A DNA stretch of 50,406 nt from Tranzscheliella williamsii (taxonomy: Eukaryota > Basidiomycota > Ustilaginomycetes > Ustilaginales > Ustilaginaceae), in the NCBI GenBank assembly GCA_023212725.1, contig JALBYF010000098.1, positions 1 through 50,406 of the forward strand, in the 5' to 3' direction. This document shows positions 14,053-48,414 of this stretch, one piece after another. The notes beneath the pieces were generated by a model. It worked only from the letters and a program-made list of their open reading frames with translations, was not told the DNA's origin and ran no database searches. The position numbers and the translations under genes were made by a program. Position 1 is the stretch's first letter. Each line of letters begins with the position of its first letter.

Positions 14053-15502
14053 TCATATAGATGCGGCGCCGTGACTACTCACCAGTAATGGCTTGATACC
14101 TTGGTCCTGCCGACTCGCCTCTAATGTCAGCGCATTGCTCAGGATTTGAAGCTCCAGATTCGCCTCAACCTTTCCCAACCTCAAGTCCTTCAGATTTTGC
14201 AAGACCAGCCTTTTCATTCCCGGCGGGGGCTGTGGAGAGTCCGGTATCTTGCGTGAGTCCTCATCGTCAGAACTGGCAGAATCAGGCTTCTGGGACTGCA
14301 AATTGCCCGGAGGCGGCTGCGGTGCATCGGAGGAAAAGTTGAAGTATCTTTCCTGTTCGAGCAGCTGCCTGATGGACGCCAAGTCTTGCCAGGTGTTTGT
14401 TGTGCAATCCAGCAGCTGGCTTGGCTTGTACTCCGCTTTATACCTCATTTTCTGGCAGGTGTGGATGTAGAACCCCAGATAATAGTAGCGTATGCTTTGC
14501 ATATGTATCATGCTGCCTAGACGCTTAGTCAGAGCAATCTCCTGCAGGGCGCTGATCTTGCCTAACTCAAGGTCGTGAAGGTCTGGATCATAAAAGACAT
14601 ACACACTGCTAACGCAGCTCGGCAGAATGTCCAGCACACCTACGGCGATCAACAAGCCATCGACTGTTACGGGTCAAAGTTGGTTTAGTGGCGGGGAAAG
14701 TGGTAGCGTTCAGCCAAGGAACTTTGAGATACTCACGCCGATACTCCTGATGGTATGCGCCGAAAGGAATCTGGTCCGATATCGTCTGGAGAGTGAAATG
14801 ACGTGATCTCCATTCCGCTACTTCAGCCTCCGAGAGAGGCAGACCTGTCGAAGGCAGTGTGGGCACCATGCAAGAATCCACTAGGAATGACTCGAAGCCT
14901 TTGCGGCTGCTGATGTCTTTCTCGGCCTCGCCATGTACCTTGCTTTGGTATTTGCGGAAAAGCTGATACTTTTCGTCAGTCGAGCTGGAGAGTTGCAGCC
15001 GCACCTCCAGCTTCTTAGTGATTGGACCGGCAACTTGATCCACCCAAGAGACGCCCTTTGCTCCATCCTGCTTTCCCTGCGCTTGGACGTACTCGATCTC
15101 ATGCCATCTTTGCACGACATCCCAGTCGCGGCCTCGGCTCCAATTGCCCTTCCATCTGGCTGGTTTCTGCTTTTCTGTACGGACATGAAACAAGAGCTTT
15201 GACAGTGCCCGCTTCTGGCCCTTGCTTGGCCTGAAACGTTGTGAAGCAACGCGAATCGGTATCTGAGCGCAACAGGTTCGAAGCAGATCAGGTTTGTAGA
15301 TGTAGTCTCCGGAACGCCGCCAACCTTGATCTAGCAGCTGCTGGTAATGGAACGGAGATAGACGGTGAGCCCACACTCCGTACGACTTGCTCGTCTTGCT
15401 TGTCGAACGTTTGCCGGACGCTGGCCCGGTACAGTAGCCACACGAGGAGCTGGAATAGCCTACTGGCGAGACTATTGACAGCTGTCTGCTGGTGTGCCTC
15501 AT
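14053..15502 (-). CDS. ATE1: Arginyl-tRNA--protein transferase Ate1, 2 exons
   Basis: Exon 1 is 15502-14737 and exon 2 is 14663-14053, giving 458 residues. The intron 14664-14736 has donor GTGAGT and acceptor CAG, and the join reads QEYR-LDGLLIAVGVLDILP, a continuous Ate1 motif. The enzyme transfers Arg to N-terminal Asp, Glu or oxidised Cys and feeds proteins to the Arg/N-degron pathway. Visible hallmarks are CGYC near the N-terminus, GWRRSGDYIYKP, the TCC motif of the regulatory cysteine/heme region, and the C-terminal GNAT-like SSVYVFYDPD. I start at ATG 15502 because SIVSPVGY follows closely, as in the family. An in-frame ATG at 15682 would add 60 residues without homology. A GTGAGT in the last codons (near 14075) leaves open a further 3' exon. 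Confidence 0.93.
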
Positions 15503-15853
15503 GATAGCGTCTGCCGTCAGCGGGGGAATAGTAGATCTTGTGCACGATTCAACGTCATCTTGTGACTTGGTTTGATGGCACCCGACACTCGACTCAACCT
15601 GTAACGTCGTGAGTCGGTGGACACACACAGAGGCAAGCATTTCGGATTGAATGAGACTTGTATGCACGTACCGATCATCCATCTCGACCCTTTTTCATTT
15701 TTCAGGAATGCCAAAAGGCATGTGACAGCTTCTTGTGAATGCTGTCGTTGGGATCCCTCCCCGGACCAATGCTGGAGGTCAAGCTAACTATCCCTCTGCC
15801 ATTACCTTGACACAGCACCAGCCAGAGCAAACCGCTCTCTCTGGTTGCCAAAC
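15503..15853. promoter_or_regulatory. Divergent promoter region ATE1 / ELP2-PPAT
   Basis: These 351 bp separate the two start codons. No recognisable motif or RNA gene is present beyond the frame extension of ATE1 to 15682. Confidence 0.45.
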
Positions 15854-18800
15854 ATGCCGCCACACTTCTCTAGCGTCTACATCTCGGCGGCCTTCAACAG
15901 AGCCAATCATGTCGCCGACTGGGCCAACACACCGGGCAGTACCCTCGCTTTCGCTTCCAACAAAAGCATTGGCATATGGAAAGATCCAGGTCATCCTGCT
16001 TCTCCACAGATCACCCATGTAATCCACTCTGGCTTCTCCAAGCCGATATCCTGTCTCAAGTTCGCTTCTCTCCATGCAATTTCCCCTCTCGCCTCCATAG
16101 TGTCTGGCTCGGCTGACGGCTCCATAGGCGTATGGGCCGTCCAGCCAGATCAGGAATGGAAGAGGCAAAGTCTCACCAAGGATGCGCACCAAGGCTCAGT
16201 CTCTGCCCTCGGGGTCCTTCGAAGCTCAAGTACAGCTTCAACAACATCGCTGTTCGTGACAGGAGCTTCAGACGGCCTTCTGAAGGTCTGGCGTACGTCC
16301 GCTCATGGCCAAGTCCACCTCTCTCAGACCATCGACTTATCTGGCAGCTTCCCGCTCGATATTGCATTGTTAGAGCTTCCGTCAACCACGACCGGATCTG
16401 AGCCATTGGTCTTGATGGCGGTGGCCACGACGTCACAAAGGATCAACCTGTATGCATCCGAACCTGTCTCGAACACTTCCGAGCACCCTCGCTTCCAGCA
16501 CAAGTTAGCGCTTGACGGGCACGAGGATTGGGTCAAGTCTTTGGACCTTTGCCGAACTCAGACCTCTCATTCCGACGCTGTGCCCGACACGTTGATGCTG
16601 GCAAGTGGTTCCCAAGACGGCAGTGTCCGGTTATGGAAGATCGCAGCCCGAACCCGTAAGGATGAGCCTGACGCCGACCCAGCACCTAAAGAAATGGATG
16701 ATTTTGAGCGTATGGTGTCCAAGATCGAATCCGATCGGATGAATCAGGACGGCGAAATGTCCACACGAGCATACCCCTTCTCGGTCATGCAGCAAGCGGA
16801 CGCCCCTCAGGACTGGGCCGTTACCTTCGATGCCCTGCTAGTTGGTCATGATAATTGGGTAACCGGTGTACGCTGGCATCCTCCTATCTCGACAGCGTCT
16901 GGTGGCCTTATACAGCCTGCAGCAATCCTCTCCTCCTCTGCAGACAATAGTCTTATCCTCTGGACCCCCAGCGGGCAGGCAACCAAACTACATCATTCAA
17001 CTCCTTATCCGGTCTTTGATCGAGCTCTGCTCTCTTCTGGAGGAGCGAAAAGATCACAGGGACCAACCTCTCACCACACAGCCTCTTCAATATGGATGCC
17101 TTCTCAGCGATTTGGCGAAGTTGGCGGTGCAAGTAACCTCGGATTCTTCGGGGCTCTGTGGAGACCTGTATCACCGAGCTCCGCTCCCGAACAACAGCGG
17201 GATTTTTTCTCAGCTGTTATGGCACATGGATGGGGAGGGTCAGCTCATATATGGACGTCGAGTCGTATGACATCAGCGGCAGCGGAACTTCAGTGGCAAG
17301 ATGCTAGCCCAGTCACTGGGCATTTTGGGCCCGCAAGGTCTGTCGCTTGGGAACCTTGCGGCGAATATCTGCTAACCTGCTCAGATGATCAGACTACCAG
17401 GCTTCATGCCAGACCTTCTTCATCCTCCAACTTGGGACAAGGTTTCCCCTTAAACCGTTGGCATGAAGTAGCACGGCCTCAATCACATGGGTACGATTTG
17501 CACTCTGTCTCATGGCTCGACCGACTCAACTTTGTTTCGGCAGCCGATGAGAAGGTCCTACGTGTATTTTCTGCTCCCAGGGGCTTCGTCGGCACTATTG
17601 GACCGAACGGATTGGCCTGCGCCCGGCTAGGCTCGGAGGATGACTCGCGCAACGCCGTGATGCCACAATCCGGCCAGGATACATTCGTCTGCCTGGAGGT
17701 CGATGAAGGCGTCGGCCTCTTGTCGTCGGCCAAGAGACACGGCGCTCTCCTGAGCCAGGCGATGAGTGAACATTACAACGAAGAGCAGGAGGTCCTGACG
17801 GCAATCGTCAGCTCTTCTCTCTTCGACATGGAGGCGGCCTCGAGATCAAGCTTTAAATCGCTGGAGCTTTATCTCAAGTGGCTCTATGCCCAAGCCTGGA
17901 GTGTAGCTGTCAAGAAGCGCCAAATGTTGGCCGATATCAACATCCTCATTGTGCCTAAAGAGAAGCTGGAGAGCACTTCAAGAAGATTGTACTCAGCTTC
18001 GGCTCGCGTGTTGGTCGATGATACCATCTATGCATCTCAGAAGACATTCTGGACCAACCTCGGCGCAGCTGCGATGCCAATTTCCACCAACGTTGGCTAT
18101 GATGAAGACGCATCTGCTGTAGGTCAGGACGATGGGAAAGGGCTCAAGACGTACCCAGTAGTTGCTCTCGGCGGCACATTCGACCACCTTCACGTCGGTC
18201 ACAAGATCCTCCTAAGCATGGCTGCTCTGGTTGCCGAGAAAAAGATCATCGTTGGCGTAACGGATGACGCCATGCTAACGAAGAAGAGCAACGCGCGGCT
18301 TCTTGAGCCGATTGATCAGCGAATAGCCTCCGTCGATGCCTTTATCAAACTTTTCAGGCTGGCATACACGCCGTTGATACAGGACGTCGTGAAGCTCGAA
18401 GACGTGGCGGGTCCTGCGGCAACAGAAGCAGACCTGCAAGCACTTGTCGTTACGGACGAAACTCTTTCCGGCGCCGATTTTATTGATGGCAAGAGAAAGG
18501 AGAACGGGTTAAGTTCGCTCGAGACTTGGATCATCGGGGTTGTGGGAAGCGAAGGTGAGACCAACCTGACAGGCGACGCCAAGGCGCTTGCGGAAAGCAA
18601 GATCGGCAGCACCGCCATCCGCAAATGGCTGGCGCAGCGTGGTCCTCGCTTTGTACAGGCCCTGGAAACAGCCAGAAGATATCGAGTTGCAACCTCTCTC
18701 AGACAGTCTGCCGCTGGCACTACTGGGCCCGATACATCCAATCTGGAATTGAGGCCTGTAGGAGCCAGTGTACCGCCGTTGGGTCTGTCCAACCGTGCCG

Positions 18801-19696
18801 TTTTCGAAGGTTTTAACGTCGAAGAAACGCCGAGTGCAACCGGTCAGCCGATTGGGTCGGCCAAAGAATCCATGTCTGCTGTTCTTCAACGACCGCCGAC
18901 CGAGGAGCAGCTGAGTGTAGAAACGCTGTGGCCGGAGCTAGAGAAGCTCTATGGGCACGGATACGAGCTTCTCTGGGTAAGCGCCAATCCGGCAGGACGG
19001 GGGCCATGTGCAGAGACGGGCGGACGTTTCGTAGCCTCCTGCTGCCGTGCTACGAGCGAAGGCCACGCTGTTGTACGGATTCACGACCGGGAGCGGAACT
19101 GGATGGAATGCGGGGTCCTTTCTGGCCACTCGCTCAGCATCACCCGCATCCACTGGAGTCTAGACTCGCGTTATGTCCTTACCTGCTCCAGAGACCGGAG
19201 CTGGAGGATGTACGAGCGGACGACGGAGGATGCGGGTCGTAGCGGCGGCGTTTTTGTGCCGTTCACGGGCGAAAGGTCACATGCTCGGATCATCTGGGAC
19301 GTCTCATGGTCCAAGGATCCTGCGACGCCGTATCTTTTCGCGACGGCCTCGCGCGACAAGACGGTCAAGGTCTTCCGCCTGGTCGCCGGGGAGGAAAAGC
19401 CGTTCGAACTGATACAGACGATCAAGTTTACCGAACCAGCCACGGCGGTCGCTTTCGGGGTCGGTCAGCTGCTCGCGGTCGGCAAGGAAAGCGGCGGCCT
19501 TGAAATCCTGCAGCGAACCGACCAGGACGACGGCCTCGGCACCTGGAGCTGCGTACTCGCCATCGACGACTTTGCGTCCGACCAGATCAACCAGCTCGAG
19601 TTCCGCCCGCCCATGCTCGAGGACGGCGACGATGCCCTGCTTGCCTCCGCGTCCGAAGACGGTACGGTGCGTATCATCCGAATCACCGGTTTGTAG
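15854..19696 (+). CDS. ELP2: Elongator subunit Elp2 with an embedded phosphopantetheine adenylyltransferase domain
   Basis: A single open frame of 1280 residues from the first ATG (15854). Residues 1 to ~577 are the Elp2 WD40 half (SVYISAAFNRANHVADW at the start, repeated GHEDWVKSL and GHDNWVTGVRW blades, ending DEKVLRVFSAPRGFV). Residues ~578-969 are foreign to Elp2. After a ~180-residue lead they contain a eukaryotic PPAT (Cab4/COASY-type) core: VVALGGTFDHLHVGH (HxGH at 780-783), TDETLSGADFIDGKR, and KIGSTAIRKW (S919-T920, R923) matching the family's SSTxxR motif. From ~970 Elp2 resumes (VPPLGLSNRAVFEGFN, then ETLWPELEKLYGHGYEL and the last WD blades). Without the insert the Elp2 part is ~890 residues, close to normal. 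PPAT makes dephospho-CoA; Elp2 scaffolds Elongator, whose Elp3 uses acetyl-CoA. I see no splice pair needed to explain the fusion. Confidence 0.93.
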   Translation: MPPHFSSVYISAAFNRANHVADWANTPGSTLAFASNKSIGIWKDPGHPASPQITHVIHSGFSKPISCLKFASLHAISPLASIVSGSADGSIGVWAVQPDQEWKRQSLTKDAHQGSVSALGVLRSSSTASTTSLFVTGASDGLLKVWRTSAHGQVHLSQTIDLSGSFPLDIALLELPSTTTGSEPLVLMAVATTSQRINLYASEPVSNTSEHPRFQHKLALDGHEDWVKSLDLCRTQTSHSDAVPDTLMLASGSQDGSVRLWKIAARTRKDEPDADPAPKEMDDFERMVSKIESDRMNQDGEMSTRAYPFSVMQQADAPQDWAVTFDALLVGHDNWVTGVRWHPPISTASGGLIQPAAILSSSADNSLILWTPSGQATKLHHSTPYPVFDRALLSSGGAKRSQGPTSHHTASSIWMPSQRFGEVGGASNLGFFGALWRPVSPSSAPEQQRDFFSAVMAHGWGGSAHIWTSSRMTSAAAELQWQDASPVTGHFGPARSVAWEPCGEYLLTCSDDQTTRLHARPSSSSNLGQGFPLNRWHEVARPQSHGYDLHSVSWLDRLNFVSAADEKVLRVFSAPRGFVGTIGPNGLACARLGSEDDSRNAVMPQSGQDTFVCLEVDEGVGLLSSAKRHGALLSQAMSEHYNEEQEVLTAIVSSSLFDMEAASRSSFKSLELYLKWLYAQAWSVAVKKRQMLADINILIVPKEKLESTSRRLYSASARVLVDDTIYASQKTFWTNLGAAAMPISTNVGYDEDASAVGQDDGKGLKTYPVVALGGTFDHLHVGHKILLSMAALVAEKKIIVGVTDDAMLTKKSNARLLEPIDQRIASVDAFIKLFRLAYTPLIQDVVKLEDVAGPAATEADLQALVVTDETLSGADFIDGKRKENGLSSLETWIIGVVGSEGETNLTGDAKALAESKIGSTAIRKWLAQRGPRFVQALETARRYRVATSLRQSAAGTTGPDTSNLELRPVGASVPPLGLSNRAVFEGFNVEETPSATGQPIGSAKESMSAVLQRPPTEEQLSVETLWPELEKLYGHGYELLWVSANPAGRGPCAETGGRFVASCCRATSEGHAVVRIHDRERNWMECGVLSGHSLSITRIHWSLDSRYVLTCSRDRSWRMYERTTEDAGRSGGVFVPFTGERSHARIIWDVSWSKDPATPYLFATASRDKTVKVFRLVAGEEKPFELIQTIKFTEPATAVAFGVGQLLAVGKESGGLEILQRTDQDDGLGTWSCVLAIDDFASDQINQLEFRPPMLEDGDDALLASASEDGTVRIIRITGL

Positions 19697-44322: not shown

Positions 44323-47300
44323 ATGAGTTCCCAGCCTTTTCAGCGAACCCTCCGTTTGGTCAACTGGAACTGTAACGGCCTCAATGTGTCCCCGATCGCC
44401 AAAATCCAGGACTGGGAGGTCATTGCTCACAATGCCGACATAGTCCTCCTCCAGGAACCATGCTTCAACTCTATACGGCCGCAATTCCCAACCTATGACC
44501 CCTCACAATTGCTAACACAACTCGCACCTCGAGCCATTTCTGCCACCGTACATCAATCTCTGACCTCGCCTTATAGTGCTATTGTCATTCTAAATGCCGA
44601 CATAAACCTCACCAACCCAATCATAAGTGCAGATGGCCGCATCGTATCTGCCACCGTCAAGGTTTCAACAGATACCTTCCAAATCACTTCGATCTATGCC
44701 CCAGCCACGCACACCGACCGGAAACAATTCTTTGAAGACATCCGGATCAATCCATTCACTCGCGACCGCAATGCCATTCTAGCCGGAGACTGGAATGATG
44801 CACCGTCCCAACACGACTTTTATCATGGCCGTGACGGTCGCGCCCACCTTTGGCCCATTATTGAGCCTCAAACCATTGCTACCAACCTGTTTGACCCACA
44901 GCTTCTTCTCCATGGGGAGGCTCGGACGTACACGAGGATTGCATTCTCTGCCACGGGCCAGATCTCTTCGGCCAGCCGTATCGACTTCTACCTCATTAGC
45001 TCTCCACTACTACACCGTTGCACCTCCGTGGAGACTCACCAAAGCGTCTCTTCCGACCACTCCGCTGTGTCTCTTGAAAATCACCTATTCAAACGAGGTC
45101 TCCACTGACGACGACCGTCCGTATCGGCGATGGAAGTTACCTCAACCTATTGTCCGCTACGAGCCCTTCAAGGACTTAGCCTCTGAGTTCCTCACCCACA
45201 CCGTTGACTCAGTCCTTACACCGCCACCATCTATCAAAATAGCTACTGCCTACACCGAATGGATCGAAAGATGTCGCAATTTCTCCAGCCTCACTGGATA
45301 CAAACTGCGTCATTCCTTCCTGCTAGCTCACAAACTTCATCGTCACCTCCGTGCCACACTTGGCAGCTGGGATTTCCACAGAAACCCTGACCTCTCCGCT
45401 TACCTTGCACTTCGCCGGGACGTCCAACACCTTCAATCCCAACTTAACCTCACCGGCATCACTGTCCACCCAACACAACTCCATTCTACTGCCTATGATC
45501 AGTTGCACCACCTCAACGCCTCCGCCGCTACTTCCTTCTTTACCAACCTCTTCTCCGCTCGCCCTTCGACGAGGTCCAACATGTTGCGGCCCTCTCACTT
45601 CTTGCCACATCGCCACAGCGGTTATCAGAGGACACCATTGCCCACCTCCGTCGGCCCTTTACTGAAGCTGAATTCTTACCTATCATCGCCAGGGCGAAGA
45701 ATATGCACTCCGCACCCGGACCAAATGGGCTTCCCCACACCTTCTGGTTATGCAATCCCTCTGCTAGCGCCAAAGCCTTCAGCCGTCTTGCTAACAGCTT
45801 ACGCTCAGGACGGTCATTATCAGACCATCAGCCTCTAATCGCCGGCACCTTACTTTACAAGAACAAAGGCGACCGCGATAACCCCGCTAACTATCGACCC
45901 ATCTCCGTCATTGATGCTGACCTTCGTCTCCAAGACCTGGCCCTGCATCACCGACTGATGACAGGAGTGCAGGAAATTACACCTACTTCACAATCCGGCT
46001 TTATTGCTAACCGCTCCGTTTTCACCGCTGTATTGACTCTTCAGATTGTCGTATCAGCTGTCAACATCGGCCTCACCGAGACTGACGAAGTTCTGGTGAT
46101 TGATCAGGACCAGCAGAAAGCGTTTGACCGGATCGATCGGGCCTGGTTGTGGACTGTTCTCAAATTCCGGGGCTACCCCCTTTCCATCATTCGGTATCTG
46201 CAAAATCTGTACAAACACCCCCATGTGGTGTACCATATAGGTGACGGCTATACTGCCCACATCCCCATGGACCAAGGGATCTTACAAGGGCTTCCATCTT
46301 CTCCTCTTCTTTACCTCCTTGCCTACCAACCTTTCCTCGACTCCATTGCCCATGACGGCATTGGTGTCCGCCTCAGAAACACCTCTGAGCACATAACATC
46401 TACCTCATATGCCGACAACACCATCATCACCATCGCACGCACAGAGGACTTCCATCTTTATAGTGCACGCCATCAGGAGTTCGATACTGCTTCCGGAGCC
46501 AGCCTCAACCCATCCACAACCTACCGCCTCCTTCGTCGCTCGCAATCCAGCGCCGTGGGAGACATACAGTCCCAACCCTGGGATGACCTACTCTCCGCCA
46601 ACGGCATCACCTTAGATCCAAGCCCAGAATGGAAATATTTGGGCGCCTATTTCCACAATCACGACCATATCCCTGTCGATCACTTCAACACACTACTTGA
46701 CCAGGTTCGCAGCCGGCTACGGAAGACTTCACACAATCGCAAAGACCTTCTCTACCGCATCCAGTTATTAAACGGTTCTGTTTTCACCCTTCTTTGGCAC
46801 CACGTCTCCATCGGATTGCCCTTTGCTCAATTTCTGGACTCATTGCAAACGCTCACCAACAGCTGGCTTTTTGGGACATCACGACGGCCGTATGTCCCAC
46901 GGGACCTTCTTATTGGGCCCCGCGATTTGGGAGGCTTTGGCCTTCAAGATTGCTGGATTACCAGCCTCAGCCGTAACGCTAAGGTCATCTGCGGCGTTCT
47001 TTGCAGCGATGAACTCCCACACCACTCTCTGGTTGAACTCATTCGCGGCTATCTACAATGTCATGCTGCGTCTCCGCTCCCTACACTCCTCACTCGACAC
47101 AACATGTCCTGGGACCGGATACGCTGCGATCCCAACCACCATTTCCCCTCCTCGGTCCTTCAGACTCTGCATGAGCTCCAGCTCAGCATCCCCGCTGACG
47201 TTCACTGGGACCAGTTATCCCTTCCTGAAATCGGCTCCCTCCCTTGGTTTGATGAATCATACGGGATTGCCTTCCCACCGCAAGATCACCGTTGGAACAG

Positions 47301-48414
47301 GTTTAATCAACATTGTCTCAATCTAAGACGACAAGGCTTCATCTCTTTCGCAGACATCCTTTGGACCGATGGAACTAGCCTTTGCTTCCCAACCTTCTAT
47401 GACTTGGCCGCTGTGGACCAACCTGCATACATGTCCATTCAATATCCCCGCACAGTTAGCCAGCAAATCACGGGTCAAATTCAACGCCAAGCCAATCGTA
47501 CTACCTTTACCTGGATTTCCAAGCGCTGGGAGCACTATCTTCTGCTTTTACCGACTGGCCTCCAACGCCGTCTCCGACAACTGCCAACCTTTGCTCCAAC
47601 TGTCCCTCCCCTGCCCTTCAACCGATCCAGCTGGCCCATCTTCACGGCCGATGAACGCACCACTCTGCAGCTTCCTTGGCGGCACCTTTCTCTTGCCGGC
47701 CAACGCCTACATTCAATCGACCATTGCCAGACTTATGCCTGGTATTACACGCATCACGCGGGAACGACTCGCCCACACTTTTATGCGGACATACAAGCCT
47801 CTAGCGGGACACTTTTTCGGGTTGAACCAGCCACCTTCTGGACGACATTATGGAAGCGTATCCAACAGGTTAACCATGGACCCGGGAAGACCAACTGGCT
47901 CCTGGCCGTTTATGGCCGCCTATGGCGTCTCTGCAACGACGATGGCACGGTTTATGTGTGCGCAGCATGTGACCAACCTGACGACACCATCCACGCCATC
48001 TTCTCCTGCCCGGACCTTCGGTTGTTTTGGCCCTCGGTGTTCGCCATTGCCCAAGCCTGGATCCCTTCACTATCGGATCAGCGCCTCCCTCCGTCCTCTG
48101 CAATCGAGTACGTGCATGGCTGGCCAACAACATATGCACTCCTCCATCGGCGGGACAAAAAGCGGCTGCAGCTTGTGTTTCTTCTCGCCATCACTGCAAT
48201 CACCACCTGCCGGACCGCTAAGCGATGCACTTACTCTCCATGCCAGGCCCTCCCATACTTCAAAGCCGAGTTTCTCCTGGCCAAGGCCGACCCCTCGCAC
48301 AACCACCTCTTTGACAATTCCCCGCTGTCCTTCATTGACCCTGATGGCATTGACGCAATCATCCGCGCTTCTGAGGTACTTTGCGACGTCCAAGGCTGGT
48401 ACCATCGTGGCTAG
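44323..48414 (+). pseudogene. LINE ORF2 (endonuclease / reverse transcriptase) with two frameshifts
   Basis: Starts at ATG 44323. The endonuclease is in frame 1 up to ~45060-45108 with its catalytic set visible (NWNCNG, LLQEPC, LAGDWND, SRIDFYL, SDHSAV). The coding sense then moves to frame 2 (DDDRPYRRWKLPQPIVRYEPF...) and returns to frame 1 near 45560-45585, upstream of SAPGPNGLPHTFW. The two shifts compensate, so the reverse transcriptase and C-terminus read on to 48414. RT motifs: NYRPISVIDADLRL, DQDQQKAFDRID, MDQGILQGLPSSPLLY and SYADNTI. The last is YADN where LINE enzymes have YADD. The C-terminus has CAACDQPDDTIHAIFSC, a CCHC-like zinc motif. I do not assign the exact indel bases. Confidence 0.85.

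Follow-up and report, generated by a model that had tools for sequence, protein, structure and literature searches.

A predicted coenzyme A synthesis enzyme nested within the Elongator subunit Elp2 of Tranzscheliella williamsii and related fungi

The window analysed here is a stretch of 50,406 nucleotides from the basidiomycete T. williamsii (contig JALBYF010000098.1, positions 1 to 50,406 of the forward strand), and our subject is an open reading frame (ORF) within it, at 15854-19696, that is, by its sequence, a full Elp2 subunit of Elongator carrying a 393-residue insert. The insert is, as judged from sequence, motifs and predicted fold, a complete phosphopantetheine adenylyltransferase (PPAT) of fungal type, the enzyme for step 4, a late one, of coenzyme A (CoA) synthesis. 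Very probably, an ordinary basidiomycete PPAT was inserted in Elp2, the free gene was lost and the product is a single bifunctional polypeptide with two jobs. An earlier note, made from the letters of the window alone, had described the frame as Elp2, then PPAT, then Elp2 again without a stop, and the ORF does translate into 1280 residues free of stops with Elp2 matches on both sides. That note had the insert at about residues 578-969; the alignment described below shifts the bounds slightly, to 580-972. The features of the frame are as follows.

15854-17590, plus strand: Elp2 part 1 (residues 1-579), covering WD40 propeller one and the initial blades of propeller two, from phmmer matches to Elp2 chains, WD40 repeats and the alignment boundary.
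17591-18769, plus strand: the insert (residues 580-972), with PPAT in it and, at either end, what is left of the usual Elp2 loop, on the right RPVGAS at 18752-18769; from the loop alignment and the boundary against stand-alone PPATs.
17681-18082, plus strand: N-terminal alpha/beta domain of PPAT (residues about 610-743), which stand-alone basidiomycete PPATs also have; from alignment with those proteins and the predicted structure.
18152-18649, plus strand: nucleotidyltransferase domain of PPAT (residues about 767-932).
18170-18202, plus strand: nucleotidyltransferase signature GGTFDHLHVGH (residues 773-783), from the translation.
18599-18622, plus strand: C-terminal motif KIGSTAIR, SSTxxR-like (residues 916-923), from the translation.
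18770-19696, plus strand: Elp2 part 2 (residues 973-1280) and the stop, the remainder of the second propeller; from phmmer, the alignment and the predicted structure.

Elp2 homology is present on both flanks of the insert. In a phmmer search against solved chains, four stretches of the ORF matched Elp2 chains, the best being mouse Elp2 (8avg_B, E 3.5e-92), and of these, stretch three stops at query residue 581 and stretch four begins at 967. The predicted structure likewise has an Elp2 fold match on either side of the insert, and a second WD40 propeller of Elp2 type is built there from sequence on both sides.

The boundaries of the insert come from an alignment of the T. williamsii protein with 120 homologues, those listed out of a total of 326. 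Between SAPRGFV and VPPLGLSN lies a loop of 393 residues in T. williamsii; it has 21-30 residues in 58 comparison proteins (54 of them with named species) and 27-35 in five Tilletia proteins, and the earlier note had likewise spoken of a short loop in ordinary Elp2. A long loop occurs in 57 of the 121 aligned proteins; 55 inserts of 328-436 residues, that of T. williamsii included, were retained, the fragments P0020 and P0034 being left out and fragment P0066 belonging to neither loop class. The ends of the ordinary loop can be read in fused rows such as Tilletiaria, on the left as ETVKNLG (as in Hydnomerulius) and on the right as RPIGAS (RPVGAS in T. williamsii). As both ends of the ordinary loop are thus preserved, the PPAT appears to have been slotted into the variable middle of the loop. 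Its presence in T. williamsii is not due to chance, because 54 further proteins of the alignment have the same insert at this loop. Third-position GC is 0.65 and 0.59 in the two halves of the insert and 0.61, 0.46 and 0.71 in the flanks, whose range takes in both insert values, and base composition thus gives no hint of a recent origin.

As regards the identity of the insert, CTP_transf_like (PF01467) matches residues 772-873 with 32.3 bits against a cut-off of 21 (Pfam, among the families listed, 25 of 30), the NCBIfam model NF001985 (pantetheine-phosphate adenylyltransferase) matches with an E-value of 1.8e-26, and chain 3do8, deposited as a PPAT, matches at E 2e-9; the insert is nearer to PPAT than to other nucleotidyltransferases. 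Both motifs that the earlier note had called intact are so, and they are shared widely. The fixed positions of GGTFDHxHxGH, as well as K337, S340 and R344 of the insert in the C-terminal motif (S340 being the second S-position), are invariant in 55/55 inserts and in 111 stand-alone rows, and the T of the latter motif is kept in 98% of inserts. The insert would therefore be expected, from these residues, to be catalytically active.

The earlier note's claim of a complete PPAT domain stands, although the inserted piece is larger than that. Twelve stand-alone PPATs align with it end to end: the starting point is insert residue 12-26 for the 11 from Tilletia and Agaricomycetes and residue 1 for the one from Microbotryum, and the end point is 353-361 for ten of the 12 and 393 for the other two, both of them Tilletia rows. 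Because of this end-to-end alignment, we take the insert for a whole fungal PPAT that extends beyond the catalytic core and includes a poorly conserved N-terminal domain, a domain which the fold search barely probed. Forty-five positions are at least 97% conserved in the stand-alone rows, and 12 of these are looser in the fused set (below 90%, or with another residue commonest); ten of the 12 are hydrophobic or aromatic, and the remaining two are K218, often R, and Q283. Following the PPAT motif, residues 931-954 (18644-18715) are predicted to form a long helix, which may set the distance between PPAT and propeller. Its GPRFxxALE-like residues are resembled in other Ustilaginomycetes rows and are not recognisable in the alignment in Malassezia rows.

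If the insert is the cell's PPAT, the genome should hold no other, and the assembly (18.18 Mb in 135 contigs) was searched with only the best candidates scored and read exon by exon. PPAT queries (the insert, Tilletia maclaganii and Heliocybe) matched only ORF 15854-19696 in this assembly, and a second PPAT was not found there, as the earlier note's reading would have it. CTP_transf_like matches in the assembly comprise this ORF, a CCT-like gene (3hl4, E 1.4e-42) and an NMNAT-like gene (9iw1, E 2.2e-47), and the latter two were rejected as candidates for a second PPAT on account of these resemblances. With an Elp2 query, the ORF came up as three pieces, besides two weak matches (E 3.3e-5 and 6.1e-4) taken to be other WD40 genes, and no uninterrupted second Elp2 was found in the assembly. 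Genes for Elp1, Elp3, Elp4 and CoaE, the dephospho-CoA kinase (DPCK), lie on contigs other than that of ELP2, the sole CoaE match being on contig C61.

The homologue search bears out that the insert is real and shows that it is not peculiar to T. williamsii. Among the homologues listed, an insert in the same loop occurs in 25 other named species of Ustilaginomycotina, from the Ustilaginomycetes, the Exobasidiomycetes and Malassezia. The fused lineages are Ustilaginales, Violaceomyces, Tilletiaria, Microstroma, Sympodiomycopsis, Exobasidium, Meira, Parajaminaea, Jaminaea, two Ceraceosorus and seven Malassezia, so that the fusion spans three classes from Malassezia to the smuts; class was checked for Violaceomyces, Ceraceosorus, Malassezia, Tilletia and Tilletiaria, and is presumed for the other fused genera. 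The 13 closest rows (P0002-P0014) are 63-65% identical over the whole protein, with junctions identical in place. Tilletia is the exception, having a short-loop Elp2 and a separate PPAT (five proteins), and the two are also separate genes in Heliocybe, Obba and Gloeophyllum. Two of the free Tilletia horrida PPATs, P0123 and P0128 (358 and 364 residues), bear the NCBI name 'Elongator subunit elp2' with PF01467 as their only Pfam domain, probably a naming error copied from fused proteins; some stand-alone PPATs in the databases are thus mislabelled as Elp2. Another entry among the Elp2 homologues, P0105 from Rhodotorula toruloides, is 2123 residues long and has PF00589, presumably an integrase/recombinase domain, in addition to its propellers; a merged gene model or a further fusion may lie behind this.

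Among the named rows of two PPAT searches (120 of 230 and 120 of 341 matches listed), no free PPAT from a fused lineage was found. Scored on their own as separate sequences, 46 of the 55 inserts, T. williamsii included, reached at least 146 bits, the lowest listed score of the first search, which favours a true absence of free PPATs from these lineages. The absence is suggestive, not proof, and the free gene would then have been lost in the relatives as well.

The most probable course of events is that a whole PPAT was inserted in frame, most simply once, into the variable loop that joins two blades of Elp2's second propeller, in an ancestor of most sampled Ustilaginomycotina, and that the free PPAT gene was lost afterwards. 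The protein would be translated as one chain of about 138 kDa, in which the Elp2 propellers would fold around the loop and join Elongator. The PPAT domain would hang from that loop and turn 4'-phosphopantetheine and ATP into dephospho-CoA for the whole cell, and the supply of PPAT would then follow the abundance of Elp2. The CAB genes are essential in yeast (PMC8494682); since the fused gene would carry the cell's PPAT, the ELP2 gene of T. williamsii should be essential too.

Several observations weigh against this reading. The NF001985 score of the insert, 93.1 bits, does not reach the model's curated cut-off (104), nor do those of two stand-alone PPATs from Tilletia (81.6 and 93.2 bits), and because the NCBIfam library was made for bacterial and archaeal annotation, the shortfall does not decide membership in a eukaryotic family. 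The catalytic domain is somewhat more divergent in fused inserts than in stand-alone proteins (54.0% vs 64.3% mean pairwise identity, nine rows each). The finding of a single PPAT holds for the assembly as sequenced, which may be incomplete. Ethanolamine-phosphate cytidylyltransferase would be expected in such a genome and is not among the PF01467 matches of the assembly, so that the PF01467 list is perhaps not exhaustive. Among relatives, the first PPAT search had shown five Tilletia PPATs, of which the second, in the 120 of 341 matches listed, recovered one.

The trees add a further point of this kind: neither the PPAT tree nor the concatenated tree unites the fused rows in one clade, and these rows form one group in only 2% of the bootstrap trees of each. 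In the PPAT tree the fused inserts and the Tilletia PPATs together form one clade (100/100), with Malassezia outside Tilletia and the rest (96/79). The concatenated tree also has Malassezia outside (97/98, starred) and places Tilletia among the Exobasidiomycetes (87/87). With Elp2 alone, Tilletia lies outside all fused rows (86/84). A single fused clade was not rejected by the approximately unbiased test (p-AU 0.185 for the PPAT tree and 0.102 for the concatenated tree), and the Malassezia rows have an odd composition in the trees. Given that the fused rows are not one clade in two of the trees, a single gain requires either a reversal in Tilletia or a misplaced Malassezia. A published analysis places Tilletia in the Exobasidiomycetes (PMC7184893), which leans towards a clean reversal. 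Tilletia would thus either never have had the fusion or have undone it. A single gain is the simplest history because the loop is identical; nothing more is then needed, or one clean reversal in Tilletia.

One question is why the fusion has persisted. The reason may be that it is hard to undo once the free copy is lost, the two domains being independent and having no joint function. This is the proposed insertion and loss with an evolutionary cause attached, and we regard it as rather likely. The insertion is in a variable, tolerant loop of which both ends are kept, the linkers are variable and no second copy was found in the assembly; given the loss of the free gene, such an account needs no further assumption. 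It predicts nothing special, however, and if Tilletia falls inside the fused group, as in the concatenated tree, the fusion has been undone once.

An alternative is that PPAT is kept on Elongator to supply or sense CoA for Elp3, or that Elp2 scaffolds other CoA enzymes, linking tRNA modification with CoA synthesis. Such a link is conceivable because Elp2 clamps Elp3 on the side opposite Elp1 (PMC10018365, PMC11096365) and Elongator uses acetyl-CoA (PMC7663514). The fusion has also spread over three classes, and CoA enzymes of yeast form a complex with Cab3 as scaffold (PMC7865483). The product of PPAT, however, is two steps short of acetyl-CoA, and the DPCK gene is separate. Any feeding of Elongator would be indirect, since dephospho-CoA needs DPCK and acetylation before Elp3 can use it. 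Moreover, loss of the free copy would be enough to lock in the fusion, Tilletia manages with the two genes apart, and over 25 rows the linker on the right is constant neither in length nor in sequence. We therefore hold such coupling to be unlikely, and its specific form, in which PPAT is retained to couple CoA synthesis with wobble-uridine modification and Elongator is a CoA-synthesis platform too, to be slightly less likely again. If true, one protein would set CoA supply, or the level of phosphopantetheine, together with translation.

It is also possible that the two activities are separated later, the insert being removed by alternative splicing or PPAT being freed by proteolysis. Low-confidence stretches do flank the PPAT (pLDDT < 50 at residues 1-26 and 379-391 of the insert model), but no GTRNGY donor-like site is near 17591 (six occur in the ORF, with only that at 18119 within the insert), and the protein models of homologues, which leave room for alternative forms, treat the insert as coding. 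Separation of this sort seems quite improbable. That the enzyme is dead and has been retained as a structural add-on to Elp2 is far less credible still: the N-terminal domain is weakly conserved in the fused rows (23.3% mean identity in nine rows), though stand-alone rows are little better (28.8%, also nine), and the invariant signature and C-terminal motif residues, as well as the lack of another PPAT in the assembly, argue against it. An assembly chimera, which the earlier note had given as a refutation, and a contaminant insert were both rejected, as other sequenced species share both junctions.

Two neighbours on the contig may be mentioned. An ATE1-like frame (arginyl-tRNA-protein transferase; 14609-15682, minus strand) lies head to head with ELP2, with about 170 bases between the frames, and the two genes may share a promoter region. 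Near the contig end, a 903-residue frame (45703-48414, plus strand) with a reverse transcriptase domain (RVT_1) is likely a retroelement.

Enzyme fusions are common, yet we found no earlier description of an essential CoA enzyme that lies inside a subunit of Elongator and has been retained across much of a subphylum. The earlier note knew of no described Elp2-PPAT protein, and searches of the open-licence PMC literature, judged by titles and abstract openings, brought up no paper on the fusion; database annotations, however, already show the domain pair, a Kalmanozyma entry being named 'Cytidyltransferase-like domain protein'. The Elongator role of ELP2 is dispensable in yeast. We predict that ELP2 is essential in the fused fungi, and Elongator knock-out results there would be confounded for this reason. 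An essential metabolic enzyme (in yeast, PMC8494682) and an Elongator subunit appear to share a gene in many fungi, from smuts to the skin yeast Malassezia. They offer a natural experiment on the persistence of a fusion, with Tilletia as the unfused comparison.

Compared with known systems, the Elp2 portion resembles yeast (4xfv) and mouse (8avg_B) Elp2 in its WD40 propellers, in its whole-length sequence match, in the fold match of its second propeller and in the presence of other Elongator genes, and it differs in that mouse Elp2 has about 18 residues between matched stretches (475 to 494) vs 393 in T. williamsii. The insert shares its N-terminal and nucleotidyltransferase domains, with the same motifs, with fungal PPATs of the Cab4 type, which stand alone in Tilletia, Agaricomycetes and others, whereas no gene of its own was found for the T. 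williamsii PPAT and both of its ends are joined to Elp2. A PPAT within a larger multidomain protein is also found in animal COASY, which we take to be a PPAT-DPCK fusion; marsupial entries with PF01467 and PF01121 were among the matches of the PPAT search, and an environmental protein of 385 residues, P0319, has the same two domains in a COASY-like pairing. The ORF has no DPCK (CoaE) domain. In COASY, successive steps of a single pathway are fused end to end, whereas in T. williamsii the PPAT is nested in a subunit of an unrelated complex, with DPCK encoded by a separate gene.
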